From Microcaldota archaeon (GTDB lineage: Archaea; Micrarchaeota; Micrarchaeia; Micrarchaeales; Micrarchaeaceae), in contig JAJYIZ010000004.1 of the NCBI GenBank assembly GCA_021789815.1, forward strand, positions 1-43,112: a DNA stretch of 43,112 bases, given 5' to 3'. Each line of letters opens with the position of its first letter. Position 1 is the first letter of the stretch. Positions 7,116 through 26,043 of the stretch are shown piece by piece. The position numbers were made by a program, and so were the translations under genes. Under the pieces are notes generated by a model. That model was given only the letters and a program-made list of their open reading frames with translations, was not told where the DNA came from and made no database searches.

Positions 7116-7517
7116 ATGAATCTAGGGAATATAAACTACAGGGTTAGGAGCGTAATCCACCTTCTGGGAGTCTCTCTGCTCATGGTGAGCGGATTGCTCG
7201 CAGCTTTCACAGTATCCGCAACAGGCCAGGGCGCAATATCGAGCAACATCATAAGCACAACATGCTCGCTTTATGCAACAGTACACACGGTCATCTTCGT
7301 GATAGGTCTAGTACTTATCATAATAGGTGCCGCACTGTACGCAGGCGCACAGGTACTGCCAGGAAACCTGAAGGGAAGCGCGCAAGGTTATGGAATGGGA
7401 ATGGCAGTCGGTGGAGTTGTCGGAGTAATTCTGGCACTAGCAGCACCGTTCATTCTCCAGTCGGTAACCGGAAACAGCAGCGCATCGACAACCTGCGCGG
7501 CATACGGATCGCTCTAA
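7116..7517 (+). CDS. VirB2/CedA1-like pilin, copy 1
   Basis: This 133-residue protein has a basic N-terminus, a hydrophobic segment ending AAFTVSATGQGA that looks like a signal peptide with an A-x-A type site, and two more hydrophobic helices (about residues 53-74 and 91-110). The helices are joined by a short polar loop (VLPGNLKGSAQGYG). This is the plan of conjugative pilins of the VirB2/TrbC family and of archaeal Ced pilins. A Cys lies just before the first mature helix (TTCSLY) and another near the C-terminus (TTCAAY), which could form a disulfide. It is about 90% identical to the product at 7659. A TATA box and a strong terminator make it a one-gene transcription unit at the head of the secretion-like block. 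The pilin role is inferred from topology and context. Confidence 0.7.
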   Translation: MNLGNINYRVRSVIHLLGVSLLMVSGLLAAFTVSATGQGAISSNIISTTCSLYATVHTVIFVIGLVLIIIGAALYAGAQVLPGNLKGSAQGYGMGMAVGGVVGVILALAAPFILQSVTGNSSASTTCAAYGSL

Positions 7518-7529
7518 TCCGAAAATTAT

Positions 7530-7558
7530 GGAAGGTGCAAACCTTCCTTTTCTTTTTT
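7530..7558 (+). terminator. intrinsic terminator after pilin 1
   Basis: A 6-bp stem GGAAGG/CCTTCC with a 6-nt loop is followed by an 11-nt T-rich run (TTTTCTTTTTT). Confidence 0.75.
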
Positions 7559-7612
7559 AGACCTAGCCATGCCCATGGCTATCTGGCATCTGTGACGTGG
7601 GAAGCGAAAGGC

Positions 7613-7622
7613 TTTTAAATAC
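7613..7622 (+). promoter_or_regulatory. TATA box for second pilin gene
   Basis: TTTTAAATAC is identical to the box at 7075 and lies about 42 nt before the ATG at 7659. The intervening leader resembles that of copy 1, so promoter and gene were probably duplicated together. Confidence 0.6.
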
Positions 7623-7658
7623 GATTGATGGAATATCAAGAGAACAAGGCATGAGAAA

Positions 7659-8063
7659 ATGGCCAGATTTGGAATGAACATGGACAAAATGAGGAGGATG
7701 GTACATCTCCTTGGAGTCTCTCTGCTGATGGTCAGCGGACTGCTCGCAGCGTTCACCGTATCGGCAACAGGACAGGGAGCGATTTCGGGTAACGTCATAA
7801 AGACGACCTGCTCGCTCTACGCGACCGTGCACACGGTAATCTTCGTTGTAGGACTAGTGCTTATAATAATAGGCGCAGCACTATACGCAGGTGCACAGGT
7901 ACTGCCTGGAAACCTGAAGGGAAGTGCTCAGGGATACGGAATGGGAATGGCTGTCGGAGGAATAGTCGGAGTGCTACTGGCACTAGCTGCACCTTTCATA
8001 CTGCAGTCTGTGACAGGAAACAGCACGGCAACGGCTACATGCGCAGCATACAGCTCGCTGTAA
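7659..8063 (+). CDS. VirB2/CedA1-like pilin, copy 2
   Basis: This 134-residue paralogue of the gene at 7116 has the same signal-like N-terminal helix, two transmembrane helices, the identical loop between them and both conserved cysteines. Changes are few and conservative (V/I swaps, SSA to TAT near the C-terminus), while the DNA differs at many third codon positions. The duplication is therefore not recent and the protein is under constraint. An ATG at 7651 is out of frame and ends after eight codons, so 7659 is the start. It has its own TATA box and terminator. Two pilins could give a mixed fibre, or major and minor subunits. Confidence 0.7.
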   Translation: MARFGMNMDKMRRMVHLLGVSLLMVSGLLAAFTVSATGQGAISGNVIKTTCSLYATVHTVIFVVGLVLIIIGAALYAGAQVLPGNLKGSAQGYGMGMAVGGIVGVLLALAAPFILQSVTGNSTATATCAAYSSL

Positions 8064-8077
8064 ATCCATCCGTTTGA

Positions 8078-8113
8078 GGAAGGCTTTTGCCTTCCCTCTT
8101 TTTTCTTTTCTTG
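8078..8113 (+). terminator. intrinsic terminator after pilin 2
   Basis: A 7-bp stem GGAAGGC/GCCTTCC with a TTTT loop is followed by a long T/C run (CTCTTTTTTCTTTTC). Its stem sequence is nearly that of the first pilin terminator. Confidence 0.8.
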
Positions 8114-8162
8114 TTAGCGATTGGCGTGCAGCATAGGCCCTAAATTTTTGGCGCTACGCTGC

Positions 8163-8170
8163 ATATTTAT
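8163..8170 (+). promoter_or_regulatory. TATA box for membrane protein at 8196
   Basis: ATATTTAT is centred 29 nt before ATG 8196, which fits leaderless initiation there rather than at the farther upstream in-frame ATG at 8121. Confidence 0.5.
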
Positions 8171-8195
8171 TAGTTTTCATGCATATCTACTTGGA

Positions 8196-8927
8196 ATGAC
8201 CAGCGTCCTTGAGTATGCGATCGAGACCTACTTCGGCAGAATAGGCCTTATACTGCTCTTCTCGATATCTTTCGTGATAGCCCTTGCGATACCGATATTC
8301 GCTTCACTGCCGACGTACAGCGACATAGGGGCCATTTTCGTAAGAACCGGGAGCGTCTTCGCCAACCTCAACGCGATAAACACAGCGATAATAATAGCGG
8401 CTACACTCTTCTCGCTGCTCTTCCTCAGCTTTGCAATCGTAGCAATCAACGTTATAGTGAAGCATAAGAGAACGCAGGTCAGAATACGCCACGAGGTCCT
8501 TGATGGAATAGAGAAGTACACAGGCAGAGTGTTCATGATCCTGCTCCTCTTCACATTCATACTCAGCGTTGTGAATCTTCTGACATACTCTACTGGCTAT
8601 TCCGGCCTCGCAACAGCCATAGCTGGAATAGTTTTCATACCGCTCTTCTTCTATGCACCTTCATCCATAGTCATAGACGAGCGCGGAATGATAAGGGCAA
8701 TGAGGGCCAGCGCAGCATACCTCTTCAAAAGGCTCGACTACTTTCTCATGTGGCTTGCCCTGGCAATAGTCATCATATCCTTCTTCGATTTCATCTTCAT
8801 AATCGTGAGCGGAACGCTCATATCAAGGTACGCAATGCTGGTGTTCGATTCCTTGTTTGTGCTGCCCTTCCTTATTGTTCTGCAGAGCCAGATGTACATG
8901 AAGAGATTTGCGCTCTTGAAGAGATAG
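8196..8927 (+). CDS. six-helix integral membrane protein, function unknown
   Basis: The product is 243 residues with about six transmembrane helices in three pairs. The central IVIDERGMIRAMRASAAYLF segment before the last pair resembles a motif of archaeal YciC/DUF7847-like membrane proteins of unknown role. The start was set at 8196 because a TATA box sits 29 nt upstream. The in-frame ATG at 8121 would lie upstream of the expected transcript and adds 25 residues running through the promoter. It follows the pilins directly and precedes the VirB6-like series, so it may help assemble the machine, but it lacks the R-x5-R-x2-G-G signature of that series. Confidence 0.6.
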   Translation: MTSVLEYAIETYFGRIGLILLFSISFVIALAIPIFASLPTYSDIGAIFVRTGSVFANLNAINTAIIIAATLFSLLFLSFAIVAINVIVKHKRTQVRIRHEVLDGIEKYTGRVFMILLLFTFILSVVNLLTYSTGYSGLATAIAGIVFIPLFFYAPSSIVIDERGMIRAMRASAAYLFKRLDYFLMWLALAIVIISFFDFIFIIVSGTLISRYAMLVFDSLFVLPFLIVLQSQMYMKRFALLKR

Positions 8928-8932
8928 AATCC

Positions 8933-8940
8933 TTATAAAT
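8933..8940 (+). promoter_or_regulatory. TATA box opening the VirB6-like operon
   Basis: TTATAAAT is centred about 27 nt before ATG 8963. This fits a leaderless start there and argues against the in-frame GTG at 8948, which would lie upstream of the transcript. Confidence 0.55.
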
Positions 8941-8962
8941 AACTATCGTGCGAAAGCGTAGT

Positions 8963-10216
8963 ATGCTTCAGGGGATGAGCCGTGCAGCATTGTTTGCAGT
9001 GCTCGCGCTCATGTTGGTCGCGTCGCTAAGCAGGATGTCGTTCGGAGCCCTTCCAAATACTGTAAGTTGCGCGATAATACAGCAGCAGGTCGATATGGGG
9101 ACCTGCCTGGTCAACGCAATCCCTATAGCCATGGTCGGCGTTCTCTTCTCTCTCTCGCTTGTTGCAGTGTCATACATGTTCGATGCTGTGATACACATAC
9201 CGAGCATGCGTAATTGGTACAGGAACGAGCTCAAGGAGACTGCAAAGAGCTTAATGATTATAATAATCGCGATATCCGCACTGGCCCTGCTCAGCGGGAT
9301 AGCCTCGGTAGTCGCTAACACCGGCACAACTCAAACAGGCACATCTCCAAGCACAATACAATCGAACCTTGGAAACCTATACGACGCTGCGAGCAACTAC
9401 ATAACCGTGCAGCAGGGCAAGGCGAGCGACGCTTACTCCTTTATGACAGGCCTGTCTGTAGGGATAGGTCTTCTCAAGACTGCGCAACTCTACCTATGGA
9501 TACCATTCCCTCTTGTACCAGATTTCATAATACCGCCAACGAACCCCTGCATAGTTTGCTTGCGCTTTGGTTCGGATGAATTTCTTTACCAGAGCACAAT
9601 AATAGATACGTCTAGCATCACAGCGGTCAACAATCTTGCTTTCATAAGAGACGTTTACGAATTTCTTGTCCTTCCTGTGTTCTTTGTCTTCACTGTACAG
9701 CAGGCACTCCTTCCTGTCCTGATGCAGGTCGGCCTGCTTCTCTTCTTCCCTATAGGCATAATACTCAGAGCCATACCATTCGTCAGGGGAATAGGCGGAA
9801 CACTCATAGCGATAGGGCTTACACTATCACTAATCTATCCGTTTGTCCTTGTTGCATTCAATGTTCCGGTTACCAGTGCAATAAACAAACTTGTCACATT
9901 CAACAATGGTGCTCCACAATCCTGCTCCATAAATGTCCTGGTGATCGGCGACGCGATCTGCTGGATCTTCACCAGCTTCACGAGCGTCTTCTCTGGGAGC
10001 ATAGCGTATGTGACCGGGCTCGGCGCAGGGATAACGAGCCTGACAAGCATATACCCGGCATTCGACGGCATACAGTACTACACGTTCAACATAGGATTGC
10101 AGTTCATCCTGACGCTTCTCGATGTTGTGATAGTGGTTACAGCGGCGCAGAACATAGCTAAGATGCTCGGAGGCAGTATACGCCTAGGATTGGGCGGAAG
10201 GCTGAAACTCGCCTAG
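8963..10216 (+). CDS. VirB6/TrbL/CedA-like polytopic protein, paralogue A
   Basis: This 417-residue protein begins with a signal-like helix ending near SFGALPNT and then has several long hydrophobic helices. It carries both signatures of the series: E-L-K-E at residues 89-92, opening a long isoleucine-rich helix, and R269-x5-R275-x2-G278-G279 followed by a helix reaching a YP pair. Between them is a variable, mostly extracytoplasmic loop with Cys residues (NPCIVCLR). The C-terminus is a small basic Gly-rich tail. VirB6/TrbL proteins form the inner-membrane channel base of type IV secretion systems and CedA is the archaeal analogue; assignment here rests on topology, shared motifs and the neighbouring pilins and ATPase. 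The start is chosen by TATA spacing. Confidence 0.6.
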   Translation: MLQGMSRAALFAVLALMLVASLSRMSFGALPNTVSCAIIQQQVDMGTCLVNAIPIAMVGVLFSLSLVAVSYMFDAVIHIPSMRNWYRNELKETAKSLMIIIIAISALALLSGIASVVANTGTTQTGTSPSTIQSNLGNLYDAASNYITVQQGKASDAYSFMTGLSVGIGLLKTAQLYLWIPFPLVPDFIIPPTNPCIVCLRFGSDEFLYQSTIIDTSSITAVNNLAFIRDVYEFLVLPVFFVFTVQQALLPVLMQVGLLLFFPIGIILRAIPFVRGIGGTLIAIGLTLSLIYPFVLVAFNVPVTSAINKLVTFNNGAPQSCSINVLVIGDAICWIFTSFTSVFSGSIAYVTGLGAGITSLTSIYPAFDGIQYYTFNIGLQFILTLLDVVIVVTAAQNIAKMLGGSIRLGLGGRLKLA

Positions 10217-10223
10217 TGGTCGA

Positions 10224-11423
10224 ATGATAGGAATACCAATTCAGAACCTGGGATGCGCCCTTTACGGCGGCACCAGCTACACAAACGACTTCCTGGGCAT
10301 CAACTTCCTTATCATACTCGCGAGCTTCTCGATAGTTGCCTTCGTTTACATGGTCACTCGCTTCCTTCCGCCAAACCTCAGCGCAAGGATAACTGGGGTA
10401 ACACGCGTCGAAGTTGTAGAGCTTGTCATGTCCGTGGTGATACTTATGGCTGTGCTTGCCTTCGCGCTTACGGCCTGCAACATATCCTCTTCGATAAGCA
10501 CATCTGTTACGGGCAGCGGCAGTTCACCCCTGACGTTCGCGGACCAGTACATTGCGAACCTGACTTTCAATACAGGGCTAACATTACTGACAAACATCTA
10601 CGGCTACTCGATAGCCTACCAGATAGATGGTAGCATTTGGGGCCAGCTTTCCAATCTGTTGCTGAGCATAAGCCCTAGCATAGGGATCCCACCAACTCCT
10701 CCAGGATTCCAACTTGTCAATCTGGGCTTCCCGTTCGGAGCAGATCTATCGATACTTTATACCTCATTGGGTAACATGCTTATCGGCGCTCTCGCGCCCT
10801 TAGTCATAACAGCACTCGGCATACTATTTGTTCAATGGTTGGCAATACCTGTGATACAGGCTACAGCATTTGTCATAGTGTTGCCTGTGGCTGTCGCCAT
10901 GCGCTCCTTTGCTTATGCAGCAGCTGGCCCTGGGCTGCGCCAAGCAGCCAACACTGTTCTTGCGTTGGCCGTGGCGGCATACATAGTGTATCCGTTAGCG
11001 GTATCTTTTGATCCGGTGATAATAAGCTGGCTCTACGGAAGCCCGAGTGCGCTCTCAGGAGCATACCCGGCAGCGGGGTCCAATCCTGCGGCCCCATACC
11101 TGGCGCCATATGTTGTTGCATCGCTCTCGCCTGGGCTCTTCTCTTCTACAGGTTCGAGCAACTATCAAGCGCCCGGATTCTCATTCCAGGTGCCAGCAAT
11201 AGGATCGTTCCTAAATACCGCTTTTGCATTTGGCCTGCCAGCGCTGAATCCTGGAGCAATCTTCTCCCAGGTGCAGGTGCTGATAGACAGCGTAGCCCAG
11301 TTCATATTCACCGGCGTTGTTCTCTTCGCCATAGATCTTGGAATAACCTTTGCTTTTGCAATGGGACTAACAGCTGCACTCAACTCTGGAATAGAGGGTG
11401 AAGCAAGGTTCTGGAGCGGATGA
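10224..11423 (+). CDS. VirB6/TrbL/CedA-like polytopic protein, paralogue B (divergent)
   Basis: This 399-residue multi-helix protein lies 7 nt after paralogue A. It keeps the first signature (E-V-V-E at residues 63-66, before a long hydrophobic helix). The second is degenerate: R227 is present, but the following Arg and the GG pair are replaced (AAAGPGLRQAAN), and the YP pair after the next helix is kept. Large Ser/Gly/Pro-rich extracytoplasmic loops lie between helices. No cleavable signal peptide is obvious. It is the most diverged of the six and may have a distinct position in the complex. The stop codon is 4 nt before the ATG of the next gene. Confidence 0.55.
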   Translation: MIGIPIQNLGCALYGGTSYTNDFLGINFLIILASFSIVAFVYMVTRFLPPNLSARITGVTRVEVVELVMSVVILMAVLAFALTACNISSSISTSVTGSGSSPLTFADQYIANLTFNTGLTLLTNIYGYSIAYQIDGSIWGQLSNLLLSISPSIGIPPTPPGFQLVNLGFPFGADLSILYTSLGNMLIGALAPLVITALGILFVQWLAIPVIQATAFVIVLPVAVAMRSFAYAAAGPGLRQAANTVLALAVAAYIVYPLAVSFDPVIISWLYGSPSALSGAYPAAGSNPAAPYLAPYVVASLSPGLFSSTGSSNYQAPGFSFQVPAIGSFLNTAFAFGLPALNPGAIFSQVQVLIDSVAQFIFTGVVLFAIDLGITFAFAMGLTAALNSGIEGEARFWSG

Positions 11424-11427
11424 TTTT

Positions 11428-12939
11428 ATGATTGCGCAAAGCACCCTTGTAATGCTTCAGGCGCTTCCTAGCCTAGCTGGGCAGCAAAGCTCTTTACTAC
11501 CATTGGTCTTTGCAGCATTGCTGCTAGACTCTGTGATAATAGCGTTATGGTACATGCTCGGCTGGGTTATCGGCAACAACGGCGTCAAGGCTGCCGCACG
11601 TGGCGAACTCTACCAGCTGATAGGAACCGCAATCATAATAATTGTCGTGATGTTCGCGCTCGCTACATTCTCCGGACTCTTCGTTACATCCTTGAGCGGT
11701 TCTGACCTGCTGGGCAGCACAGCGACATCCAATCTGTGCACGCAGATAAACAACAACGCCGGAAGCATAGGCACTCCAATACCCCTACTAACGGCTGTAG
11801 GTGTGGGTGGTGTGCTTTGCAGTGCGGTGAACATGAAGGCAACATCCGATCCTATAACGAACGCAATAGACTATCCGCTGGCAGCTACTGGTGTTGTGCT
11901 CGAGAACCTGACCTACCAAGCGATAGTAAATCTCAACAGCCTTTTCGTCTTCGACGCCTATCTTGGTTTCCTGACCAAGCTCACTCCGACATTTTCGCTC
12001 TGCGTGACAAACATCCCGTATCCATTCCCAGGCCAGTGCATAGTGCCACCGCCTCCGGTTCCATTAGCATCGTCGCTGCTCACCCCGTTCATCGAGTTCT
12101 CTTGGAACGCCCAACCATACGCTGGCGAAGAGATGATATTCAGAGGGCTTACAGGCACAGGAATACTGTTCACTACAGCGACAGAATCATTTGTGATACA
12201 GCTCATATTCGTTGTACTAATGCTGTATGCGTGGCCAATGCTGATATTCGTTGGCCTTGTTCTCCGCTCCACCTTCTTCACAAGAAAGCTGGGCGGACTC
12301 TTCATAGCCGTGGCCATCGGTGCAGTATTCTTCTACCCGTTGGTATTCTCTGTGCAGTACCTAACGCTCGGGCACGGCCTTGGGAACATTCCTGTATACC
12401 AGCCGAGCAGCGCGGTCTCAACCCTGCCGAACAGCATAAGCTCTATTTACGGTTACAACAACCTTGTCTCAGCCCCAATTACTGCACTGCCGGCAACCCC
12501 GTGCAGCTGGAACCCCTTAAATACGAACAACCAGGACTGTGCAACCTACACTCCTAATTTCTACATATTCCCGAGCATAGAGACGATCGCAACTTACAAC
12601 AACTGCTGGCCACCGCTGGGTGATCAGACAGGCGCGATAACCGCAGAGGCGAGCGACATCGCAACGCAGCTCATTCCATTTGTCTCGCTCACAGAACTGG
12701 CTGCATCGCTGGCCGGCGGACTTGCATCGCAGGCGCCACCGCTTCTTGTTCCGTTCCAGTGCTTCCCGTACAACGGTGAGCATACCCTATTCCAGATAGT
12801 CAACGCTTACGGAATATACGGAATATCGGCGTACCTGTTACCAATACTTGATATAATGATTACGGTCTCTGCTATACTGGGCCTCTCGTATCTGCTCGGT
12901 GGCGATACAGAACTGGCTGGTCTGGGCAAACTAGTATAA
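11428..12939 (+). CDS. VirB6/TrbL/CedA-like polytopic protein, paralogue C
   Basis: The product is 503 residues. The start is ATG 11428, with a GGAG ribosome-binding site overlapping the end of the previous gene; an in-frame GTG at 11398 would overlap paralogue B by 26 bp and lacks support. It has E-L-Y-Q at residues 60-63 and R280-x5-R286-x2-G289-G290, then a helix ending in FYP. A long extracytoplasmic loop follows the second signature, with several Cys residues and many Asn/Pro. The two ends are strongly hydrophobic and the tail is Gly-rich (LGGDTELAGLGKLV), as in other members. No signal peptide is visible; the N-terminus leads straight into a helix. Confidence 0.6.
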   Translation: MIAQSTLVMLQALPSLAGQQSSLLPLVFAALLLDSVIIALWYMLGWVIGNNGVKAAARGELYQLIGTAIIIIVVMFALATFSGLFVTSLSGSDLLGSTATSNLCTQINNNAGSIGTPIPLLTAVGVGGVLCSAVNMKATSDPITNAIDYPLAATGVVLENLTYQAIVNLNSLFVFDAYLGFLTKLTPTFSLCVTNIPYPFPGQCIVPPPPVPLASSLLTPFIEFSWNAQPYAGEEMIFRGLTGTGILFTTATESFVIQLIFVVLMLYAWPMLIFVGLVLRSTFFTRKLGGLFIAVAIGAVFFYPLVFSVQYLTLGHGLGNIPVYQPSSAVSTLPNSISSIYGYNNLVSAPITALPATPCSWNPLNTNNQDCATYTPNFYIFPSIETIATYNNCWPPLGDQTGAITAEASDIATQLIPFVSLTELAASLAGGLASQAPPLLVPFQCFPYNGEHTLFQIVNAYGIYGISAYLLPILDIMITVSAILGLSYLLGGDTELAGLGKLV

Positions 12940-12999
12940 TGTGATAACCTGAAAAAGAACGGAAGACGGACGCGCACGGCAGCACTGATAGCTGCAGCA

Positions 13000-14028
13000 A
13001 TGCTCATGCTGCTTTTTGTGCACAGCCCATCTGCACAAATATCTACATTCTGTGGCGCTGTAATCCCTACTTCCAGCAATTTCTTCGGCAACGCCAGCGC
13101 TATAAGCTCTATATTCGCGATATCCCTTGTCATAATGCTTCTTATGGCTGGGATATCCGCCATGCTATGGGCCCTGGGATACTCCTTCAGGATGAATGGT
13201 CTGATAAGGGCAAGCAGACAGGAGCTTGGGGAGATAGCCATAACGATGCTTGTCGTTTTCATCTTTGTTGGCGCATTCTCTGCTGTTTCATCGCTGGCAA
13301 CCGGTCCACCGAGCCTGCTCTCAGGAACTGGCGCATACAGCGCCAGCGTATTCATGGACGACTGCAACCAGCTTGTCAACCACGCGCAGGTGCTCTTCCA
13401 ATATTCGTTCGATATCGGGTTCATAAATGACCTAACCCTGTTCGCATCCAGCCTCACAATAGATCTACACCCAGATGGCTTAGGTATATCTTTCAGCCCT
13501 CTGTCAGGTTACGCTACCGCAACAAAGGTTGTTGGACTTCTATTCATATTCACCGGAGTGATGGCCGGCCTGCTGCTTGGTGTTGGCGTAGCGCTTGGAA
13601 TATTCTACGTACTGATGCCGATTTTCCTCTTTGCAGGAATAATACTGAGAACTCTGCCGTGGACAAGGCCCGCGGGCGGGGCTTTCCTTGGGCTCTTCGT
13701 CGGCTTCTATATAGTATTTCCTATACTTTTGCACTTCCTGCTTTTCAATTCCCCGCCTTTCGCTGCTGCACCTCCTGTCCTCGGCGGTTCCATATGGAAC
13801 TTTCTGGCAAACCCGGGTGCAACGTTCACGCTTAGCGCTGGCCTGCTCCAGATAATTGATCCCGCGTTCTCAACCCAGATAATAATCACAATACTTATAC
13901 CCGCGCTGTACGCAACCTTCAGTTTTGCATTCTCCTTCATAATATCCTTCGATTTTGCTGAGGCGGCCGGGGCCTTCTTGGGTTCGCCGACTTTGAGGAC
14001 ATCGCAGGCATTGAATAAATTGTTGTAG
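13000..14028 (+). CDS. VirB6/TrbL/CedA-like polytopic protein, paralogue D
   Basis: From ATG 13000 the product is 342 residues, with E-L-G-E at 75-78 and R217-x5-R223-x2-G226-G227. The ATG cuts into a likely signal peptide. The upstream in-frame codons from CTG 12949 encode a basic stretch (KKNGRRTRT) and more hydrophobic residues that run straight into the ATG segment and end at HSPSAQ. Translation may therefore start at the non-AUG codon 12949, which has GTGAT just before it; that frame begins only 9 nt after the preceding stop. The loop between the signatures holds few cysteines and is the shortest of the series. The last helices are rich in Phe. Confidence 0.6.
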   Translation: MLMLLFVHSPSAQISTFCGAVIPTSSNFFGNASAISSIFAISLVIMLLMAGISAMLWALGYSFRMNGLIRASRQELGEIAITMLVVFIFVGAFSAVSSLATGPPSLLSGTGAYSASVFMDDCNQLVNHAQVLFQYSFDIGFINDLTLFASSLTIDLHPDGLGISFSPLSGYATATKVVGLLFIFTGVMAGLLLGVGVALGIFYVLMPIFLFAGIILRTLPWTRPAGGAFLGLFVGFYIVFPILLHFLLFNSPPFAAAPPVLGGSIWNFLANPGATFTLSAGLLQIIDPAFSTQIIITILIPALYATFSFAFSFIISFDFAEAAGAFLGSPTLRTSQALNKLL

Positions 14029-14035
14029 CGATAAT

Positions 14036-15115
14036 ATGATGCCGAAAATATTCAGGTTGGGCGCGGTTGCGCTGATGGCGATGGCATTCGCAGCATTGCT
14101 AATGCCCTCTGTCGGAGCTGCATCACCAACCCTGCCAATAAGCCCGACCAACTGGGTGCCTGTTGCTTTCGCAGCCGTGCTCCTTGTCATAGCGGTATCG
14201 GCTTTCGTATACGCATTCTCCGGACTGACAAACAGCTGGTATGCAAAAGCATGGGCCCAGAACCAGGTCTACCAGGGGGTATTCTCGCTGGTGCTGCTTA
14301 TCATCTTCATCTATTTTGTATACACTTTCTTCATAAATCCTGTGACTGCGTTCAACAACGCCGGCCTTGTACCAGGCTACGGCGCAGGCCAGTACAACTG
14401 CCAGAACACAAACACAATATTCACCCTCTCGGCATGCGACATGTACACATTCAACCAGAACGCTTTCAATGTGATGATTACTGTAGGTGCGCTTTCATAC
14501 ATTGCCGGCCTATCGCCCGGCATCAGTGTGCAACTCAACACACTCCCCAACGACCCTGGTGTTGATGTCAAAGCCAGCCTAATCGACGTAGTTCCTATAG
14601 AGGAAGAGCAATTGATTGTGAGTGCTTTCTTGGGGCTCTTCTTTGCCTTGGTGCTAAATCAGGTGCAGTCATTGCTTGTTGGAGGGGCTCTCCTGTGGCT
14701 CTCTCTATTCCTGACAATAGGCCTGGTTGCAAGATGTTTCGGGGTAACAAGGACATTCGGAGGTAGCATGATTGCCTTTGGCCTAGGTCTCGGATTCGTC
14801 TACCCAGTATTGATATCACTGACGTATGGCTTCATAAACGTCGGAAGCGGGCCGGTCAGCGTAGCAAACAACGTTGCCCAGATAGTTCCACTGCTAGTCA
14901 CGGCATTCTTCGCAGTGCTCAGCGGCCAGTTCGGCTTTGGCGGCACACTTATATTACTGAATTCGGATTTCATCAGGCAGCTCGCTTACGTGATAGCCGG
15001 TCTGACCTTCATACCGTTCCTAAACTTCACAATACTCGACGCTTTCATAAGGGACTTCTCGAGAGCGATAGGTAACCAGGTAGACTTTATGTCGCTTCTT
15101 GGAGGACTCTTGTAG
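14036..15115 (+). CDS. VirB6/TrbL/CedA-like polytopic protein, paralogue E
   Basis: This 359-residue protein starts with a clear signal peptide (basic MMPKIFR, hydrophobic core, cleavage near SVGAASP). Then come helices and the first signature in variant form (Q-V-Y-Q at residues 77-80), a Cys-containing loop (YNCQNTNT, SACDMYT), and R233-x5-R239-x2-G242-G243 before a helix with VYP. A C-terminal amphipathic tail ends in a Gly/Leu-rich stretch. It lies 7 nt after paralogue D and 8 nt before F, within one presumed transcript from the 8933 promoter. Its membrane-channel role is inferred from the shared motifs and context. Confidence 0.6.
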   Translation: MMPKIFRLGAVALMAMAFAALLMPSVGAASPTLPISPTNWVPVAFAAVLLVIAVSAFVYAFSGLTNSWYAKAWAQNQVYQGVFSLVLLIIFIYFVYTFFINPVTAFNNAGLVPGYGAGQYNCQNTNTIFTLSACDMYTFNQNAFNVMITVGALSYIAGLSPGISVQLNTLPNDPGVDVKASLIDVVPIEEEQLIVSAFLGLFFALVLNQVQSLLVGGALLWLSLFLTIGLVARCFGVTRTFGGSMIAFGLGLGFVYPVLISLTYGFINVGSGPVSVANNVAQIVPLLVTAFFAVLSGQFGFGGTLILLNSDFIRQLAYVIAGLTFIPFLNFTILDAFIRDFSRAIGNQVDFMSLLGGLL

Positions 15116-15123
15116 GTAATGCA

Positions 15124-18837: not shown

Positions 18838-18845
18838 CCACTAAG

Positions 18846-18855
18846 TAATAAATAG
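18846..18855 (+). promoter_or_regulatory. TATA box for the VirB4N-like/ATPase operon
   Basis: TAATAAATAG is centred about 37 nt before ATG 18887, in the only intergenic gap (49 nt) between the VirB6-like series and the ATPase genes. Confidence 0.45.
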
Positions 18856-18886
18856 ATTCTTAGCCATAGATAGTGAGTGGTTTGGG

Positions 18887-19720
18887 ATGGATCCAAAGAT
18901 ATTCGTGCTGATGGGTTTCCTTGTCATATCATTCCTTCTGCTCAGCATTGCGATTGGCACACCAACTGTGCTGCTAGGCCCAGGCGGCAAGCTCGTTTTT
19001 CTTTTCCTAGCATTATTTGTTGATGTATTGGGCTTCGCTTCCCGTAGATACCTATACGTGATGACAACTTTTGTACAACAGAAGCGCAGGAACCTTGTTC
19101 TCAGTGCGGAGGAGCCATACTGGCTGTCGTCATCAGAGGACTCCATCGTAAGGAGGACGAAGGCCGGGATTGTAGCAACAGCTTACATAAGCATACCATT
19201 CTACAAATCAGCTACGGAGATGACAGACGACGAGAAGCTTGAGTTCTCCAGGCAGGTCAGCCGCCTCGTTGGAATAAGCGCAGATCCGATAAGGTTCACA
19301 GCGGAGCTCTATCTCATGAACAAGGATGCTTACATCCAGGAACTTCGCGACGCCATAAATGCAGAGGAGAACGAGGAGGCCCAACTATCGCAATCGAGCT
19401 CTACAACAGAGCAGCTGGAGATTGTGAGAGGCAAGCTCGCTATGTGGCGAAACGTGATGCAGGGCGCAAGCTCCGCGTCGTCTATGGAACTAGTTTCATA
19501 CGCAGCTATATCTGCTCTCGGTTCAAAAGAATACGAAGCGATAAGCCTTGTGCAGCAGAAAGCCCGAGAGGTCATATCTGCTATAGGCGCTACGCTCGGC
19601 GTCACGCCAAGCGTCATAGCCGGCAGGGAGATACTAAAGTTCGTTGAGCCCGAGTATCTGATCCCGTTCTCGACAGTGAGCGCGCAGATGGAGAAGAAGA
19701 CAGAGGAGCAGGTGGTCTGA
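18887..19720 (+). CDS. two-TM protein with VirB4 N-terminal-like domain, copy 1
   Basis: The product is 277 residues: two hydrophobic helices (about 5-25 and 33-52), then a basic connector and a cytosolic domain of about 220 residues. The domain opens with YWLSSSEDSIVRRTKAG, and its later helices run to a G-R-E-I-L element near residue 249. Two helices followed by such a domain matches VirB3/PrgI fused to the N-terminal non-ATPase domain of VirB4/TraC, here separate from the ATPase gene. The next gene encodes a protein of the same length and plan, and the two overlap by a single base (TGATG). It probably docks the ATPase to the membrane channel; this is inference from architecture. Confidence 0.5.
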   Translation: MDPKIFVLMGFLVISFLLLSIAIGTPTVLLGPGGKLVFLFLALFVDVLGFASRRYLYVMTTFVQQKRRNLVLSAEEPYWLSSSEDSIVRRTKAGIVATAYISIPFYKSATEMTDDEKLEFSRQVSRLVGISADPIRFTAELYLMNKDAYIQELRDAINAEENEEAQLSQSSSTTEQLEIVRGKLAMWRNVMQGASSASSMELVSYAAISALGSKEYEAISLVQQKAREVISAIGATLGVTPSVIAGREILKFVEPEYLIPFSTVSAQMEKKTEEQVV

Positions 19721-20553
19721 TGGATGGAACCGATCTGATATACCTTGCGCTCTGTGGAGTAATAGTGATGCTTGCTTTCGCCACAAACGCGGCATACGGC
19801 AAAGGTTATTCATATGTAGCAATAATGTTCGCGCTGCTGGCCGGCGTAGGCATACTCGCACTCCAGTACGTAGATTTTGTAGTGTTCCCGTTGGTCATGA
19901 AGATAATGGGAATAACATTCCAACCGGCTAAGGATTATCTTATAATATCGTCTCAGGACGCTATACTGAAGAACGTCAGCGGCCTGTACTACGCCACGGG
20001 CTATGCATCCGGCAACCTCTTTGGTTATACATTCAAGGCAGAGGAGGAAGAGCAGGGAATGGAAGAGAAGATACTATCTGCGCCGGAGAACTGGGAAAGG
20101 GCGATAATGAGCCTGGGCTTCCCCTTCAAGTTCCACGTGCTATCTGTTGGAAGAGACGTGCAAAAGGTAAGGGATGAGCTCGAAGGAAAGCGAAGCTACC
20201 AGGAGTTTCAGCTTGCCAGAACCCTCGAGAATGAAAAGGCGTCAAACGAGACAATAGTAACCGATATAAGAAGAAAGATAGCAATAATACAAGCCAAGAT
20301 AGACAGGGTGTCTGCAGGCGAGAAGCCCATATCGACGCTCATGTATTTCGAGACAACAGCTGTCGGAGTAACCGAGAAGGCCGCGCTCGACGCACTATCT
20401 TTGCAGATCAAGCAGCTCCAGATAGGCATGAGCTCGCTGAACCTGCAGGTAACTAGGGTAGCAGGCCGGGAGCTTTATTCCCTATTCAAGTTCAACTTTG
20501 GCGTTCCGATAGCTTTCCAAGACGTAGCAGCAGAGTTTGACCAAGAGGGTTGA
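19720..20553 (+). CDS. two-TM protein with VirB4 N-terminal-like domain, copy 2
   Basis: The product is also 277 residues and mirrors its upstream neighbour. Two N-terminal helices are followed by YLIISSQDAILKNVSG (compare YWLSSSEDSIVRRTKAG in copy 1), a long helical central part and G-R-E-L-Y near residue 258 (compare G-R-E-I-L). The central helices (about 140-190) are charged and probably form a coiled coil. Sequence identity between the two is low outside these landmarks, so they are old paralogues that may form a heteromeric collar for the ATPase. The TGA lies just inside the ribosome-binding region of the ATPase gene, implying coupled translation. Confidence 0.5.
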   Translation: MDGTDLIYLALCGVIVMLAFATNAAYGKGYSYVAIMFALLAGVGILALQYVDFVVFPLVMKIMGITFQPAKDYLIISSQDAILKNVSGLYYATGYASGNLFGYTFKAEEEEQGMEEKILSAPENWERAIMSLGFPFKFHVLSVGRDVQKVRDELEGKRSYQEFQLARTLENEKASNETIVTDIRRKIAIIQAKIDRVSAGEKPISTLMYFETTAVGVTEKAALDALSLQIKQLQIGMSSLNLQVTRVAGRELYSLFKFNFGVPIAFQDVAAEFDQEG

Positions 20554-20555
20554 TC

Positions 20556-22076
20556 ATGACAATAATAAAATTCCAGAATATAATGAGCAACGAGGTGGCT
20601 AAGCGTGCCTTCTTTTCAAGGCCCCCAGAGCCGCCGGCAAACGTCCTGATAAGCGATCCATTCCAGGCAATCTACATAGGAAACACCAGCCTGTTCAAGG
20701 TCCCGTTCAACTGGTCGTTCATGAACCTTGCAAACCCGCACATAGCCGTAGTTGGAATAACGGGATCAGGAAAATCCTTCTTCGTCAAGTCCTTCCTAAG
20801 GCGTGCAAGCTACATATGGAATACCAACGCGATAATAGTCGATTTTGCTGGGGAATATAAGCGCTGGGTGGAGCAGACAAGGGGCAAGGTCGTCTCGCTT
20901 GCAAAGGGCGACTATCTCAACCTTCTTGACCTGTCTAACATGAAGCCGCTTGACCGCACAAAGCAGATAATGAATTCGCTTGACATACTCACGGACATAT
21001 CACTATACCCTGAGCAGAAAAGGCTGACAGAAGAGGCGATAGAACAGGCATACACAAACGCCGGCTTTGTCCTCTATGAGATCCCTCCGACAAAGAAGGA
21101 GGCGCCCACGCTCAAGGAGGTAATAGCGCTCCTGCAGGAGAAACTGCAGGACGGCAGTTACCAGTATCCGGCAGAGCTGGAGAATGCAATTTACAGGATA
21201 AGGCAGTTCGCACGCGAAGGTGCAGACTACTTCGCGCACAAGAGCACCATAGACCTCGGCGCGCTTACAAAATCCGGACTTGTAGACATAGATCTTTCTG
21301 GACTTCCTGACGACAAGTTCAGGGCGCTCGCAGCACTCTTCATACTGCAGACCGTTAAGGAGAAGATGCGCTCCGAGGGCTGGCTCGAGACAAAGGGCCT
21401 CAAGGCGATAATAGTCCTAGACGAAGCGTGGAAGGTCGCGAGCGACGACAAGAGCGACGCGATCACGATAGTAAGAGAGGCAAGAAAGTACGGCTTTGGC
21501 CTAATAGTCGCGTCGCAGAACCCAACAGACGTCAACGAGGCGATATTCTCGAACGTCGGCACAACCTTCATACTCAGAATAAAGTTCGAGCGGTTCATGA
21601 ATTATCTGCAAGGATCGCTCAACTTCTCAAACTTCATAAGGAGCGAGATAGGCAGGTTCGGAGTGGGCCAGGCAGCGGTGAAGATGGACTTCACTACAGC
21701 GCTCAACTTCCCCGAGACATTCATAATAGGGAAGATAAACGGGGAGGAGCCGTTGTACATATACAAGGTGGACCTGTCGGATGTACTGACATCTAGCGAG
21801 CTCTCTGCAAAGCTCGTCCAATCCGAGTATCAATTAGAAAAGGAGGAGCTTAGGAACAAGCTCATAGAGTGCAACATACGCGGCGATACCGTTCACGACA
21901 TATTTTCGGCATTTGATGCCGGGAAGGAGCAGATGAAGATGCTCGATTTCGTCCGCATGCTCAAGACGGACGGGGTGCCGAACACTAGCATAGTTGCATT
22001 CCTCAAGACGCTGAGCATAGACGACGTTATAATATCAAGAATAATATCATACAGCGATGGTTATGGCAAATCCTAG
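20556..22076 (+). CDS. HerA/VirB4-type secretion ATPase
   Basis: This 506-residue RecA-fold ATPase is of the FtsK/HerA class. Walker A is G-I-T-G-S-G-K-S at residues 67-74, the DFAGEYKRW segment follows, Walker B is I-I-V-L-D-E at 285-290, and ASQNPTDVNEAIFSNVG is a typical HerA/VirB4 sensor region. There is no N-terminal VirB4 domain; that part seems to be supplied by the two preceding genes. A separate helical C-terminal domain (about 430-500) reappears as the next gene's product. Such ATPases power pilus assembly and substrate transfer in type IV secretion (CedB in Sulfolobales). ATG 20556 is preferred over an overlapping TTG at 20550 because GAGGG lies 6 nt upstream. Confidence 0.85.
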   Translation: MTIIKFQNIMSNEVAKRAFFSRPPEPPANVLISDPFQAIYIGNTSLFKVPFNWSFMNLANPHIAVVGITGSGKSFFVKSFLRRASYIWNTNAIIVDFAGEYKRWVEQTRGKVVSLAKGDYLNLLDLSNMKPLDRTKQIMNSLDILTDISLYPEQKRLTEEAIEQAYTNAGFVLYEIPPTKKEAPTLKEVIALLQEKLQDGSYQYPAELENAIYRIRQFAREGADYFAHKSTIDLGALTKSGLVDIDLSGLPDDKFRALAALFILQTVKEKMRSEGWLETKGLKAIIVLDEAWKVASDDKSDAITIVREARKYGFGLIVASQNPTDVNEAIFSNVGTTFILRIKFERFMNYLQGSLNFSNFIRSEIGRFGVGQAAVKMDFTTALNFPETFIIGKINGEEPLYIYKVDLSDVLTSSELSAKLVQSEYQLEKEELRNKLIECNIRGDTVHDIFSAFDAGKEQMKMLDFVRMLKTDGVPNTSIVAFLKTLSIDDVIISRIISYSDGYGKS

Positions 22077-22371
22077 CACCTTTACTATAACAAGGATGGA
22101 GCTGAGAAAGATCCTTGCTACGTACGGAGTGCCAGAAAGCAAGATAGACTCGATATTCAGCAGCATGGAGAAATCGCACAGGCACGTAAGTATAGTTCAG
22201 TTCATAGGTCTGCTCGAGAGGGCAGGCCTCAGTAGGGACAGGGTCATGAACGTCTTCAGAAGGATGAACATGAACGACATCCTTATAGAGGAGGTGCTCA
22301 ACATGGCAGACCAGAGCAGGATAAACGCTGAGACCGGAAGGCTCTACAGCGCATCGGTTGAATTTGGCTGA
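22057..22371 (+). CDS. stand-alone copy of the ATPase C-terminal helical domain
   Basis: The product is 104 residues (102 if it starts at ATG 22063) and all-helical by eye. Residues from E-L-R-K to N-M-A-D align without gaps over about 70 positions with the end of the ATPase. Shared points are ELR at the start, I-F-S in the second helix, [DQ]-F followed by [ML]-L, a Gly, and D-[VI]-[IL]-I-x2-[IV]-[IL] near the end. The gene overlaps the ATPase gene by 20 bp, so the two are co-translated. It could be an adaptor that mixes with or caps the ATPase C-termini. No known family is recognised. Confidence 0.7.
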   Translation: MVMANPSTFTITRMELRKILATYGVPESKIDSIFSSMEKSHRHVSIVQFIGLLERAGLSRDRVMNVFRRMNMNDILIEEVLNMADQSRINAETGRLYSASVEFG

Positions 22372-22375
22372 TCCC

Positions 22376-22792
22376 ATGGAAGAGAAGAAGCCCAAATGCA
22401 TGATCTGCAATCAGCAGAAGGAAGGGATAAACATAAGGCAGGACAGCGTAGTCTCAGCTATCCGTTGGCTCAACTCAAAGACATTCAAGTACAGCAATCC
22501 GTACAGGCCAGTGATCTGCAGGGACTGCTTCCTCAGGCACAGGAAGCTCAGGCAGGACTTCGAGCACAAAAGAATAGCGTACCTTGTGATCGGGTTCATC
22601 TTCCTTGTTGTTCTTATAATAGCATCTCGCGGCAATCCGGTATCTATACTGGCTGGCATAGGCGTAGTGGCTTTCATGTACCTCCTTGCTTTGATAAGCT
22701 ATGTCCCTGCACTTGATATCCCCGAGCAGAGGGAGCAGCAAGCTGCAGCGACAAGGCCAAAAGAGCACGGCAAGCGCAAATCCCGAAAATAG
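22376..22792 (+). CDS. zinc-finger membrane protein, unknown function
   Basis: The product is 138 residues. The N-terminal 60 residues hold two CxxC knuckles (K-C-M-I-C and I-C-R-D-C-F), likely one zinc site. Two hydrophobic helices follow (about 65-85 and 88-108), and the tail is basic (KEHGKRKSRK). The finger and tail should both face the cytosol. ATG 22376 is chosen because it follows the previous stop by 4 nt and has GGCTGATC, close to the archaeal GGTGATC ribosome-binding consensus, just upstream. It is the last gene of the ATPase operon. It might recruit nucleic acid or the ATPase to the membrane, which is a guess. Confidence 0.6.
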   Translation: MEEKKPKCMICNQQKEGINIRQDSVVSAIRWLNSKTFKYSNPYRPVICRDCFLRHRKLRQDFEHKRIAYLVIGFIFLVVLIIASRGNPVSILAGIGVVAFMYLLALISYVPALDIPEQREQQAAATRPKEHGKRKSRK

Positions 22793-22801
22793 CTAAAAGT
22801 A

Positions 22802-22810
22802 TTAAAATAC
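22802..22810 (+). promoter_or_regulatory. TATA box for coiled-coil protein operon
   Basis: TTAAAATAC is centred 33 nt before the TTG start at 22839, in a 46-nt gap after the zinc-finger protein gene. Confidence 0.45.
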
Positions 22811-22838
22811 CTCTCTGTAAATTAGATAGAGTGGTAGA

Positions 22839-23576
22839 TTGGTTGATGAGCAGCAGAGGCCCGGCTTCATAGAGCCAGACATAGAAGAAATGAGGATGCG
22901 GGCACGCATATCTGGAAGCTTTGACGATGTAACAAAAAGGTTATCAACTCTCGACCTATTCTATGTCAAGCAAAATCCAGACAGCGTCATTCTTCTAAGG
23001 ATAGAGAGCAGGGACATACAGAAGAGGCCCTTCCTTTTCTTCCTTATGACATTGGGCAAGGACAACGCGCTGGTTCAGTATTCAATAGCGCACGACTCCA
23101 GCGTCAAGATGCGCAGGCTCTACATAATAAAGAATCTATTGAATGTCCTGTCGCTTGTAGCTGATGTGTATACTATCGACAACGCAGAGCTCTTCCAGCA
23201 CGCAGATTCTGCTATAGACGACGTCGTAAGCTCCATCCCGCAGAGCTACAGTGCCCTCTACAACACATACGATTCATTGTACAACGAATACAAGGAACTG
23301 AGAAGACTGAACGTGGAGCTGACGGCATCCAACAAGAACCTTACGGTCCAGGGCATGCAGCTTGCGAACGAGAACCGCATGCTTGGCGAAAAGCTCAAAA
23401 CATTGCAGACGTATTCCGACGAGGCGCTTATGGCAAGGGTCCAGGACTGGATAGAGACGCACGACAGCACAATCGACATAGACGAATTTTCGAAGATAAA
23501 CGGGATAACCCCTCCGAGGGTTGAGCAGATACTCGACGCTATGATATCGAAGGGCTACATAGAGGTAAAGGGTTAA
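22839..23576 (+). CDS. coiled-coil protein with C-terminal winged helix
   Basis: The product is 245 residues, probably starting at TTG 22839; no in-frame ATG occurs until codon 18. An N-terminal alpha/beta domain (about 20-135, with the strand IQKRPFLFFLMTLG) is followed by a long heptad-like helix rich in Asn, Glu and Leu (about 140-190). A compact winged-helix-like C-terminus (DIDEFSKINGITPPRVEQIL to IEVKG) ends the protein. This could be a DNA-binding or subunit-bridging factor for the machine. It has its own promoter, and the basic 48-residue peptide gene starts 2 nt downstream. Confidence 0.6.
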   Translation: MVDEQQRPGFIEPDIEEMRMRARISGSFDDVTKRLSTLDLFYVKQNPDSVILLRIESRDIQKRPFLFFLMTLGKDNALVQYSIAHDSSVKMRRLYIIKNLLNVLSLVADVYTIDNAELFQHADSAIDDVVSSIPQSYSALYNTYDSLYNEYKELRRLNVELTASNKNLTVQGMQLANENRMLGEKLKTLQTYSDEALMARVQDWIETHDSTIDIDEFSKINGITPPRVEQILDAMISKGYIEVKG

Positions 23577-23577
23577 C

Positions 23578-23724
23578 ATGAAATACTACGTAAGGATAAA
23601 GAAGAGGGTCAGGTACCTTCGTACATACACGATACTGAAGAGAGTCGGAGAGAGGCAGAACGTGGTTACAAAGATACTTGTAAAGCTGCTTCAGAAGAAG
23701 CAAAAGGAGGGCATCCCTGTATAG
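23578..23724 (+). CDS. 48-residue highly basic peptide
   Basis: A short frame starts at ATG 23578, one base after the preceding TAA, and ends at TAG 23722-23724. About 17 of the 48 residues are Lys or Arg against two or three Glu, and the sequence looks helical (KKRVRYLRTY, LVKLLQKKQK). The close spacing to both neighbours and clean start suggest a real gene in the operon. It could bind nucleic acid or the ATPase. No family is recognised. Confidence 0.5.
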   Translation: MKYYVRIKKRVRYLRTYTILKRVGERQNVVTKILVKLLQKKQKEGIPV

Positions 23725-23736
23725 GCGGGTGTACAA

Positions 23737-26043
23737 ATGCGTCTAAAACCGGCCGCCGCGATGTTGGCTATACCAGTCATGCTTCTATTATTGTCCATAC
23801 CGTACGCTGCATCTCCGGGACTCAGCACATTTCTTCTGTCGCACAACGTTCTTGAGTATAATTCAAACAGATACCTGGTGCCCAGCGTACAGATAGGGTA
23901 CAGCACGGTTAACATTTCGAACATCTACATAAATGCAACGCTCTATGCAATACCACCGCGAACAAGAGTGTATATGTTAGATACATCGGGCAGCTGCTTC
24001 AACTGCGGCCAGCTTACGCAGATAGTAAGCCAGATAGATGCAGATCTACAGCAATACAGCGTAATCCAGAACGCATCGCAGGTAGGGGTCGTCGGCCAGC
24101 AGAATATTACATCTCTTCCAGGAGGATCCATACTCATAATCCTCAACGGAGTACTGCCGAGCTACATGCTCTCACAAGGCCCGGACGGCAACCCAATTAT
24201 GCAGGACCTACTTGCCAAGGGTGTAGACATAATCTACGTTGGCAGAAACTTTGGCAACGTCTCAAACGGCCAGATACTGCTTCCTACACAGCAGCCGCTG
24301 CCCTATTTCATGGCGTGGGGCCCGCACAATCCCTCTTTAAGCTACCCCAACAATCCATTCTATTTCCATCTGTCTACATTCCTGCTTGCAGGAACAACGG
24401 CAAAGCAGTACGGCCCATTGAGCTACCTGCAGGTAATCAACGGATCGTTGATAATATTCTCGAATTATCTCAACACGTGGCCAAACTCCAGCGATGCTGC
24501 TAGGGATATAGCCAAAACAACAGCGCTCCAGTTCTGGATACCTAGATATGCCACCACAAGCTCTGTTATAACCCCTCCAAGCTCAGCAAGTTCTACAGGG
24601 CAGGTGAACCTGCCGTTACTCAACCTTAACCGAAACTTCACATATTCTACTGCTATAGGTACGCCTATAGCGTACGGCCGGGTTGTGATCTACAGCACAG
24701 GCAACTTCTCCCTGTCGAACAGCAGCATATACAGGTTCATATCCTATACGCAGAACTTTACACAGAATGGATCTATACTTCTTCCCGGTGTGGTAGGGCC
24801 TGGGGTGCAGCTGCCAACCAGCATAACCATAAACACGGGCTCCGGCACTCCGGTAACGATATCGCCGCACGTCACAATATACTCCATAAACTATACGCCA
24901 GTGCAATCCATACCACTGCACCCGTTTACCGCGTCCGGCAATTTCACACAGATACAGGCACTTAGCTTCTACCTCCCACCAGGACAGTACCTTGCGAGGG
25001 TCGAAGGTTTCTATGGCAAGCAGTACGCCGTTGCGCTCTTCAACGTCTCCCAGATTAAGGTGAACCTGACAAGCGAGAACTACACCACAAACACATACCT
25101 ATTCTCGATAACCTCTGGCGGCCTGCCAGTATCTAACGTTAATTACACAATCAATGTCAACGGAGTCTTCCAGGCTTCTGGTACCGTCTACAACGGAACG
25201 ATAGCATACAAGCTGCCGCAAGGATCGCCCGTGCAAAAGGGCGCCACATTTTACATAACAATGCTTTCGACAACCTACACCGCGACTACACCAACTTCAA
25301 ACATCACCATACACATAAGCAACGACTACATCGCCATAGCAATAGTGGGCATTCTATCGCTGGTGATAATAACAGTCGTCAAGGCGCCAAACAGGGACGA
25401 GTTCTACATAGATGTGCCTACCGTGAGGGAGCAGAACCCGACGCCAATAAAGATAATCGCATCGGAGCTGGTGGCGGTCTTCGACAAGCAGAACGTATAC
25501 TATAGATGGAAGTACATGCCGCTTAACGTTGAGGAAGCCAGGCAAGCGATAGCCAACAACATAAAGGCCAGCGGCATGGCGGTCAGCCTGACGTACAGCA
25601 ACGTGGAGCTGCTCCTTGCGCAGCTCTCAACCGCGGGATTCCTTGTCAGCGCTGATAGTCTTTACGCTCCAAAAGCCTGGGTGACAAAGAGCGGGCACGA
25701 CATCGAGTATCTTGCTACATTCAAGAAGCTCAGGCTGTTCTTCGTATCACACGCATACCAGTTCAACGACATAGACGGGAGCGACAAGGCAGACATAGTT
25801 GCAACAATACACGGAGAACGCGTCTACATAGTAATCTATTCCAGAACAAGCAAGTTCCAGAAGATGCCTATATTTGCTGACTCTAGGACATACCTCGCTT
25901 TCTTGAATGCTGACAAGAGAGACGAATTCCTCATGTACCTGCGCAACTCCACAGGGCCATCTACAGAGGAGATAAAGATGTATACATCTGCAGGGCAGCT
26001 CACCCTCATAGATGCAGACAATCCTGGAGAAGCCCTTACCTGA
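23737..26043 (+). CDS. large single-pass surface protein with cytosolic domain
   Basis: The product is 768 residues: a signal peptide (about 1-24, ending IPYAAS), an ectodomain of about 500 residues with many N-x-S/T sequons, one membrane helix (about 531-548, IAIAIVGILSLVIITVV) and a cytosolic domain of about 220 residues. The first part of the ectodomain has alternating strands and helices with a Cys pair (GSCFNCG), followed by beta-rich regions. The cytosolic part begins with a charged linker (KAPNRDEFYID) and may contain a winged-helix-like unit. A GGCGGGTG ribosome-binding site precedes ATG 23737. It is the last gene of the block and its TGA abuts the TGA of top6B. A receptor or transmembrane scaffold for the apparatus is plausible but unproved. 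Confidence 0.6.
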   Translation: MRLKPAAAMLAIPVMLLLLSIPYAASPGLSTFLLSHNVLEYNSNRYLVPSVQIGYSTVNISNIYINATLYAIPPRTRVYMLDTSGSCFNCGQLTQIVSQIDADLQQYSVIQNASQVGVVGQQNITSLPGGSILIILNGVLPSYMLSQGPDGNPIMQDLLAKGVDIIYVGRNFGNVSNGQILLPTQQPLPYFMAWGPHNPSLSYPNNPFYFHLSTFLLAGTTAKQYGPLSYLQVINGSLIIFSNYLNTWPNSSDAARDIAKTTALQFWIPRYATTSSVITPPSSASSTGQVNLPLLNLNRNFTYSTAIGTPIAYGRVVIYSTGNFSLSNSSIYRFISYTQNFTQNGSILLPGVVGPGVQLPTSITINTGSGTPVTISPHVTIYSINYTPVQSIPLHPFTASGNFTQIQALSFYLPPGQYLARVEGFYGKQYAVALFNVSQIKVNLTSENYTTNTYLFSITSGGLPVSNVNYTINVNGVFQASGTVYNGTIAYKLPQGSPVQKGATFYITMLSTTYTATTPTSNITIHISNDYIAIAIVGILSLVIITVVKAPNRDEFYIDVPTVREQNPTPIKIIASELVAVFDKQNVYYRWKYMPLNVEEARQAIANNIKASGMAVSLTYSNVELLLAQLSTAGFLVSADSLYAPKAWVTKSGHDIEYLATFKKLRLFFVSHAYQFNDIDGSDKADIVATIHGERVYIVIYSRTSKFQKMPIFADSRTYLAFLNADKRDEFLMYLRNSTGPSTEEIKMYTSAGQLTLIDADNPGEALT

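Follow-up and report, generated by a model that had tools for sequence, protein, structure and literature searches.

A type IV secretion-like gene block resident in Micrarchaeota: a candidate machine for contact with host or neighbouring cells

Introduction

Micrarchaeota are tiny archaea, several of which live on other archaea. The window analysed here, the whole 43,112-nucleotide stretch from contig JAJYIZ010000004.1, belongs to a Micrarchaeota metagenome-assembled genome (678,604 bp, 29 contigs, 90% complete). Between positions 7116 and 26043 it holds a single block of 16 genes, all on the + strand, whose products resemble parts of type IV secretion systems (T4SSs), with which bacteria hand DNA from cell to cell: two pilins, six paralogous polytopic proteins, two paralogous proteins with two transmembrane segments (TMs), one VirB4/HerA-type ATPase and five others (Table 1). 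Ten of the 15 intergenic gaps are of 20 bp or less, counting overlaps, and the largest is 160 bp. A preliminary description of this DNA had given the same number of genes at these positions on the + strand, and all of them are present. It had also called the genome DPANN-like, which is confirmed by the named close relatives, Candidatus Micrarchaeota that include the cultured Micrarchaeum A_DKE and ARM-1. One start has to be moved: the open reading frame that was set at 8121 is a gene, but most likely begins at an ATG near 8193.

Table 1 Genes of the block, numbered g1 to g16 (TM counts are from a simple hydropathy scan; signal peptides and leaders were judged by eye; hhalign E-values are pairwise; AlphaFold models are of single chains)
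Gene	Position	Strand	Assignment	Remarks
g1	7116..7517	+	VirB2/CedA1-like pilin	133 aa; N-terminal hydrophobic leader, then two hydrophobic helices
g2	7659..8063	+	second pilin	87% identical to g1
g3	8193..8927	+	six-TM membrane protein, no family	adjoins pilin or channel genes
g4-g9	8948-18837	+	six polytopic proteins	
g4	8948..10216	+	VirB6/CedA-like channel paralogue	hhalign against g5-g9 E 1e-24 to 1e-35
g5	10224..11423	+	VirB6/CedA-like channel paralogue	N-terminal TM pair against pilin: hhalign E 8.8e-6, prob 83%
g6	11398..12939	+	VirB6/CedA-like channel paralogue	from hhalign; start may be ATG at 11428
g7	13000..14028	+	VirB6/CedA-like channel paralogue	A_DKE and G007 orthologues match CedA model
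g8	14036..15115	+	VirB6/CedA-like channel paralogue	AlphaFold pLDDT (predicted local distance difference test) 78; weak VirB6 fold match
g9	15124..18837	+	VirB6/CedA-like channel subunit (residues ~870-1236)	N-terminal immunoglobulin (Ig)-like extension of ~870 aa
g10-g11	18887-20553	+	two paralogous two-TM proteins	
g10	18887..19720	+	VirB3/VirB4N-like, paralogue of g11	two N-terminal TMs and cytoplasmic domain
g11	19720..20553	+	VirB3/VirB4N-like; N-terminal half of VirB4/CedB as own gene	
g12	20550..22076	+	VirB4/CedB/HerA-type ATPase	no N-terminal domain of its own
g13	22057..22371	+	small helical protein	weak similarity to g12 C-terminus (E 0.006)
g14	22358..22792	+	Cys-rich N-terminus (CxxC...CxxC) and two TMs	beside g12 throughout class
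g15	22839..23576	+	cytoplasmic; coiled coil and possible C-terminal winged helix (weak)	beside g12 throughout class
g16	23737..26043	+	N-terminal part large and probably exposed; single TM in the centre; C-terminal domain conserved, of no family	

Results

The product of g12 matched PF01935 (DUF87/TraG P-loop) at 6.6e-19 and, among the NCBIfam models, VirB4 CD1110 (6e-20), CedD (1e-18) and CedB (9e-18, over CedB residues 252-534), as its earlier call as a HerA/VirB4 ATPase predicted. Its score with the CedB model was 64 bits, the equivalog cut-off being 700. The missing N-terminal domain of VirB4 (VirB4N) appears to be encoded by g11: CedB was matched by 7 of 36 g11 orthologues (best 2.3e-4), and g11 of the window aligns over CedB 141-219. 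As the g12 match starts past this region, VirB4 is, judged from these alignments, split into genes for the N-terminal domain and a gene for the ATPase, so that a VirB4-type ATPase, as expected in the type IV secretion superfamily, is present with its N-terminal domain as a separate protein. The AlphaFold model of g11 (pLDDT 85) gave R388 VirB4 at all of Foldseek ranks 1-5 in the PDB (prob 0.96-1.0, E 0.06-0.12), a resemblance between model and structure that favours the VirB3/VirB4N assignment proposed previously. g10 is a paralogue of g11 (hhalign E 1.1e-38); each starts with two TMs fused to a VirB4N-like domain, and the VirB3 model gave no match. In Sulfolobales the N-terminal domain of VirB4 is already known to be shared out, CedB corresponding to one part of it and CedD to another (PMC11868833).

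In an alignment, the pilins share the leader, the two hydrophobic helices and a C-terminal cysteine. PF04956 (TrbC/VirB2) was matched by 16 of 32 pilin orthologues (best 9.7e-8) and PF18895 (T4SS_pilin) by 15 of the 32. A VirB2-type pilin is thus found through the orthologues, and the small proteins are pilin-like, as had been suggested. In other families of the class, six genomes (G060, G063, G080, G104, G120 and G146) each have 5-9 pilin-like matches, partly in tandem.

All six of the proteins g4-g9 are paralogous to one another (hhalign E 2e-15 to 4e-35). With g3, which likewise has six TMs, the channel proteins gave no hhalign match, and hydrophobicity alone therefore fails to explain how g4-g9 are related. 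Scanned directly against Pfam and NCBIfam, the channel proteins of the window gave no meaningful match, and the only PF04610 (TrbL) match in the genome was below threshold and outside the block. Their proposed relationship to VirB6/CedA was borne out by orthologues, the g7 orthologue of A_DKE matching the CedA model NF041796 with E 8.3e-7 (L166 10616-11074). Weaker matches to this model occurred in five more genomes: on g7 in G007 (0.0027), on g8 in G082, on longer frames not placed in the system in G060 and G063, and on a 42-aa frame, probably by chance, in G016. There was none in two genomes without the system, nor in the window's own genome. The best score was 27 bits, the CedA equivalog cut-off being 330. 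In g5, g7 and g8 the N-terminal pair of TMs is similar to the pilin (hhalign E ~1e-5, prob 63-83%), and two g8 orthologues matched T4SS_pilin (best 0.0015); a likeness of the same kind between CedA and CedA1 has been published (PMC9905601). A VirB6-type polytopic channel is thus indicated by the CedA model on g7 and g8 orthologues together with the six hhalign paralogues. Profiles of the pilins, the channel proteins and g11 found no significant match among PDB sequences.

The 1237-aa protein g9 had been described as one of the channel subunits. This stands, with the correction that it is a normal subunit preceded by an Ig-like region of about 870 residues. This extension lies ahead of the TM core and matched PF13927 (Ig_3) at 1e-8 in three stretches; the g9 profile aligns solely to residues 870-1236, and the orthologues are without the extension. 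Because a leader-like first TM precedes it, the extension is probably outside the cell. Elsewhere large extensions are found on g4, g5, g8 or a pilin, depending on the genome, and in one genome g6 has a large loop insertion between TMs. An exposed domain that changes on a fixed machine would resemble a host-recognition part or adhesin. A 687-aa protein at L045:17223-19286 has a long N-terminal extension and a VirB2-like pilin as its C-terminus, a pilin-adhesin fusion.

Of 309 loci in a contig scan for relatives the best 80 were kept, and almost all of these carried a Micrarchaeota label; the parts of the machine were sought in Micrarchaeota genomes. The ATPase was present in 57 of 60 relatives and in 214 of 245 Micrarchaeota genomes (89 of the 96 high-quality ones). 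The order of the whole block is kept within the order and recurs in two of its families; class-wide, g11-g12-g14-g15-g16 stay together and the pilin and channel genes may lie elsewhere. The block is far beyond chance, since the same genes recur with their order and strand across two families, and other families of the class retain its distal part, namely VirB4N, the ATPase and the genes at 22358-26043. All six channel families were seen in 48 of the 57 loci with enough upstream sequence; five more show five families where the locus ends, and four, including ARM-1, have no channel families nearby. Among the 55 loci in which the sequence extends far enough downstream, the next gene is that for topoisomerase VI B (Top6B) in 53. 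VirB4 distances mirror those of Top6B (r = 0.81 between the distance matrices; best of 500 permutations 0.14), the ATPase being the more conserved. Eight class-level genomes without the ATPase are also without VirB4N, a concordant loss. Families f10, f13, f15 and part of f17 are lineages that have apparently lost the system.

The operon is intact in cultured Micrarchaeum harzensis A_DKE, at L166 569-17066, and scattered in cultured ARM-1, where the six channel genes stand together, g12-g16 adjoin Top6B, g10-g11 lie two genes from thrS and the pilins are elsewhere. The ARM-1 loci include L164 6703-14517, L165 10312-12002 and L149 from 10001 onward. All core parts are nevertheless retained in ARM-1 despite the split into several loci, and they are therefore selected for and not just carried along. 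With the phylum-wide presence, the kept gene order and the Top6B neighbourhood, this completeness argues on genomic grounds that the machine is resident, vertically inherited and under selection. The preliminary description had likewise considered the genes resident rather than mobile and kept together in other genomes; the conserved chromosomal neighbourhood, with synteny across the order and of the distal part across the class, agrees with it on both counts.

No VirD4-type coupling protein lies in the block; elsewhere in the genome there is an unlinked 552-aa DUF87/TrwB-like ATPase without a TM. Relaxases of family PF03432, the one family searched for, were below cut-off in all nine genomes searched. 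No relatives of the ATPase were found in IMG/VR, and those on plasmids were distant only. In A_DKE a second, minimal locus (L167:8982-12236, chromosome ~611-614 kb) encodes a pilin, one channel protein, one VirB4N-like protein and an ATPase closest to CedB; by its gene content it resembles a compact set of the Ced type that exists alongside the large system. It was considered as a bridge to CedA and discarded, the L167 channel protein having no CedA match.

Among the accessory genes, g13 is perhaps a duplicated g12 domain, to judge by their similarity. A nuclease was considered for the C-terminus of g16 and rejected, as no conserved nuclease motif was seen.

Four further frames in the window were noted. 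A multi-TM protein of no family (3383-5317) has weak relatives (23-35% identity) near the block in several members of the order. The other three were read by eye: a short protein (36109-36579) with a type IV pilin-like leader (AQSSFELL...), so that ordinary archaeal type IV pili may coexist with the machine; a polytopic protein (32076-33632) with motifs recalling archaeosortase/exosortase (TCAPIG, LNFARMFG, FHLFAG); and a frame (31108-32214) with apparently a Nudix domain and a family 4 uracil-DNA glycosylase-like domain.

Discussion

By sequence the machine belongs to the T4SS superfamily, and its way of working looks similar to that of Ced or Ted; as all matches are far under the equivalog cut-offs, the genes are not Ced orthologues. 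The evidence leans towards an enlarged Ced/Ted-type, T4SS-derived chromosomal contact machine, probably placed at the interface with a host or neighbour. A pilus, a channel, energised transport and host contact would then fit together as follows. A g12 hexamer would dock on a membrane platform of g10 and g11, where it would power the building of the pilus from pilin in the membrane and push or pull cargo through a channel in which the six VirB6 paralogues form a hetero-oligomer. Binding of the partner cell may be aided by the exposed extension, which varies between lineages and in this genome is the Ig-like part of the channel subunit g9. Most likely the machine acts in contact with a host or a neighbouring archaeal cell, and both import of DNA or macromolecules and export of effectors are conceivable.

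Several results weigh against this contact machine. Direct VirB2 matches were absent for the window's own pilins in the Pfam scan, the assignment coming from orthologues. The VirB6 fold match of the g8 model is weak: Foldseek ranks 2 and 7 were R388 T4SS entries with VirB6, at a TM-score of ~0.3, and rank 1 was a designed protein. No channel genes were found next to the ATPase in some families of the class. Of the 37 genomes with the system 19 encode PyrB, which marks pyrimidine self-sufficiency, as do 4 of the 8 without it. The system therefore does not track nucleotide dependence, and a link with pyrimidine auxotrophy or simple nucleotide scavenging is unsupported. Finally, the authors of the ARM-1 tomography attribute the nanotube to the host and not to the symbiont (PMC11329633).

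In the same tomograms of ARM-1 with its host there are filaments and nanotubes, and the envelope of the symbiont contains a 21-nm barrel; the molecular identity of these structures is unexplained (PMC11329633). A more specific form of the contact machine, put forward tentatively, is a dedicated symbiont-side translocon in which six VirB6 paralogues have specialised, two specialised VirB4N paralogues form the platform and a swappable adhesin sets the host range. If this were true, the ARM-1 machine would be a candidate for the barrel.

Three narrower readings overlap with the contact machine. The first, possible if on the whole unlikely, is a true Ced-type importer, in which DNA taken from kin or host cells would serve repair and recombination, as it does in Sulfolobales. 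CedB and CedD are among the nearest named relatives of the ATPase and CedA among those of the channel, none of the nine genomes gave a PF03432 relaxase, and Ced likewise has paired paralogues, CedA/CedE and CedB/CedD (PMC11868833). Set against this are the scores far under the equivalog cut-offs and three times as many channel subunits; the lack of a link to pyrimidine auxotrophy speaks only against DNA as a source of nucleotides. More doubtful is an exporter of protein effectors into the host cell, as in Rickettsiales. The diversified VirB6 paralogues with huge extensions recall Anaplasma VirB6-4 (PMC7648143), and a giant nanohaloarchaeal Ig-VirB4 protein has been proposed to secrete effectors (PMC10266531), but the cluster is without a recognised coupling protein or effector. 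An attachment-only device, in which a VirB2-type pilus and an adhesion platform move no cargo, would suit the multiple pilins (5-9 matches per genome in other families) and the adhesin-like extensions; it appears improbable, six conserved channel paralogues seeming excessive for a pilus platform. An integrated conjugative or mobile element, suggested by the resemblance of the parts to conjugation genes and by the second pilin-VirB6-VirB4N-VirB4 locus of A_DKE, is largely refuted and can be rejected, the distribution being not sporadic and the location not variable. The chromosomal neighbourhood is constant across the order, neither a PF03432 relaxase in the nine genomes nor an ATPase relative in IMG/VR was found, and plasmid matches are distant only.

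The connection between DPANN archaea and their hosts lacks a molecular account, filaments and nanotubes having been observed without assigned genes. A near-universal, vertically inherited T4SS-type set offers proteins that can be named and tested in both of the cultured systems ARM-1 and Micrarchaeum A_DKE, and makes the machine a strong candidate for how Micrarchaeota connect to a neighbouring or host cell.

Comparison with known systems

No description of this machine was found in the open-access papers searched, including a 2025 paper on Micrarchaeota comparative genomics, with supplements, subscription papers and preprints outside the scope of the search. In those papers the six channel paralogues, the split VirB4, the extra conserved genes and the phylum-wide residency are undescribed.

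The machine shares with Ced of Sulfolobales (CedA, CedA1, CedA2, CedB, CedD, CedE) a pilin, a CedA-type channel, a CedB/CedD-type ATPase, a chromosomal location and duplication of channel and VirB4-like parts. It differs in its six channel paralogues, in encoding two VirB4N proteins separately from the ATPase, in five further conserved genes, in forming one operon-like block in another phylum, and in scoring far under the Ced equivalog cut-offs. Ted of Thermoproteales (TedA, TedB, TedC) likewise derives from a T4SS, is resident and comprises pilin, channel and ATPase, but its descriptions give a single gene each for channel and pilin, and no g10-g11 split or counterpart of g13-g16 has been reported for it.

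The T4SS of Rickettsiales is a Gram-negative VirB system with VirB7-VirB11 and VirD4. Like the present machine it belongs to obligate symbionts and has VirB6 in several paralogues, some of them very greatly extended, but the extensions are C-terminal, whereas that of g9 is N-terminal. The giant Ig-repeat VirB4 of nanohaloarchaea (SPEARE), also from DPANN, combines Ig-like adhesion repeats with a VirB4-type ATPase system; there one giant protein holds repeats and ATPase, whereas here the repeats are on a channel subunit of a multi-gene machine.

The T4SS of Patescibacteria (candidate phyla radiation, CPR) is likewise chromosomal, relaxase-poor and found in ultrasmall host-dependent cells, often with several VirB2-like pilins. 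It differs in belonging to the bacterial mating-pair formation (MPF)-FATA lineage with VirB1 and VirB8 homologues, and no VirB4 split has been reported. It is widespread, and is reported to be essential for epibiotic growth (PMC12102498; PMC12857230). The parallel between the Micrarchaeota machine and the T4SS of these ultrasmall epibiotic bacteria suggests that the same kind of machine may have been recruited for an epibiotic life independently in both domains.

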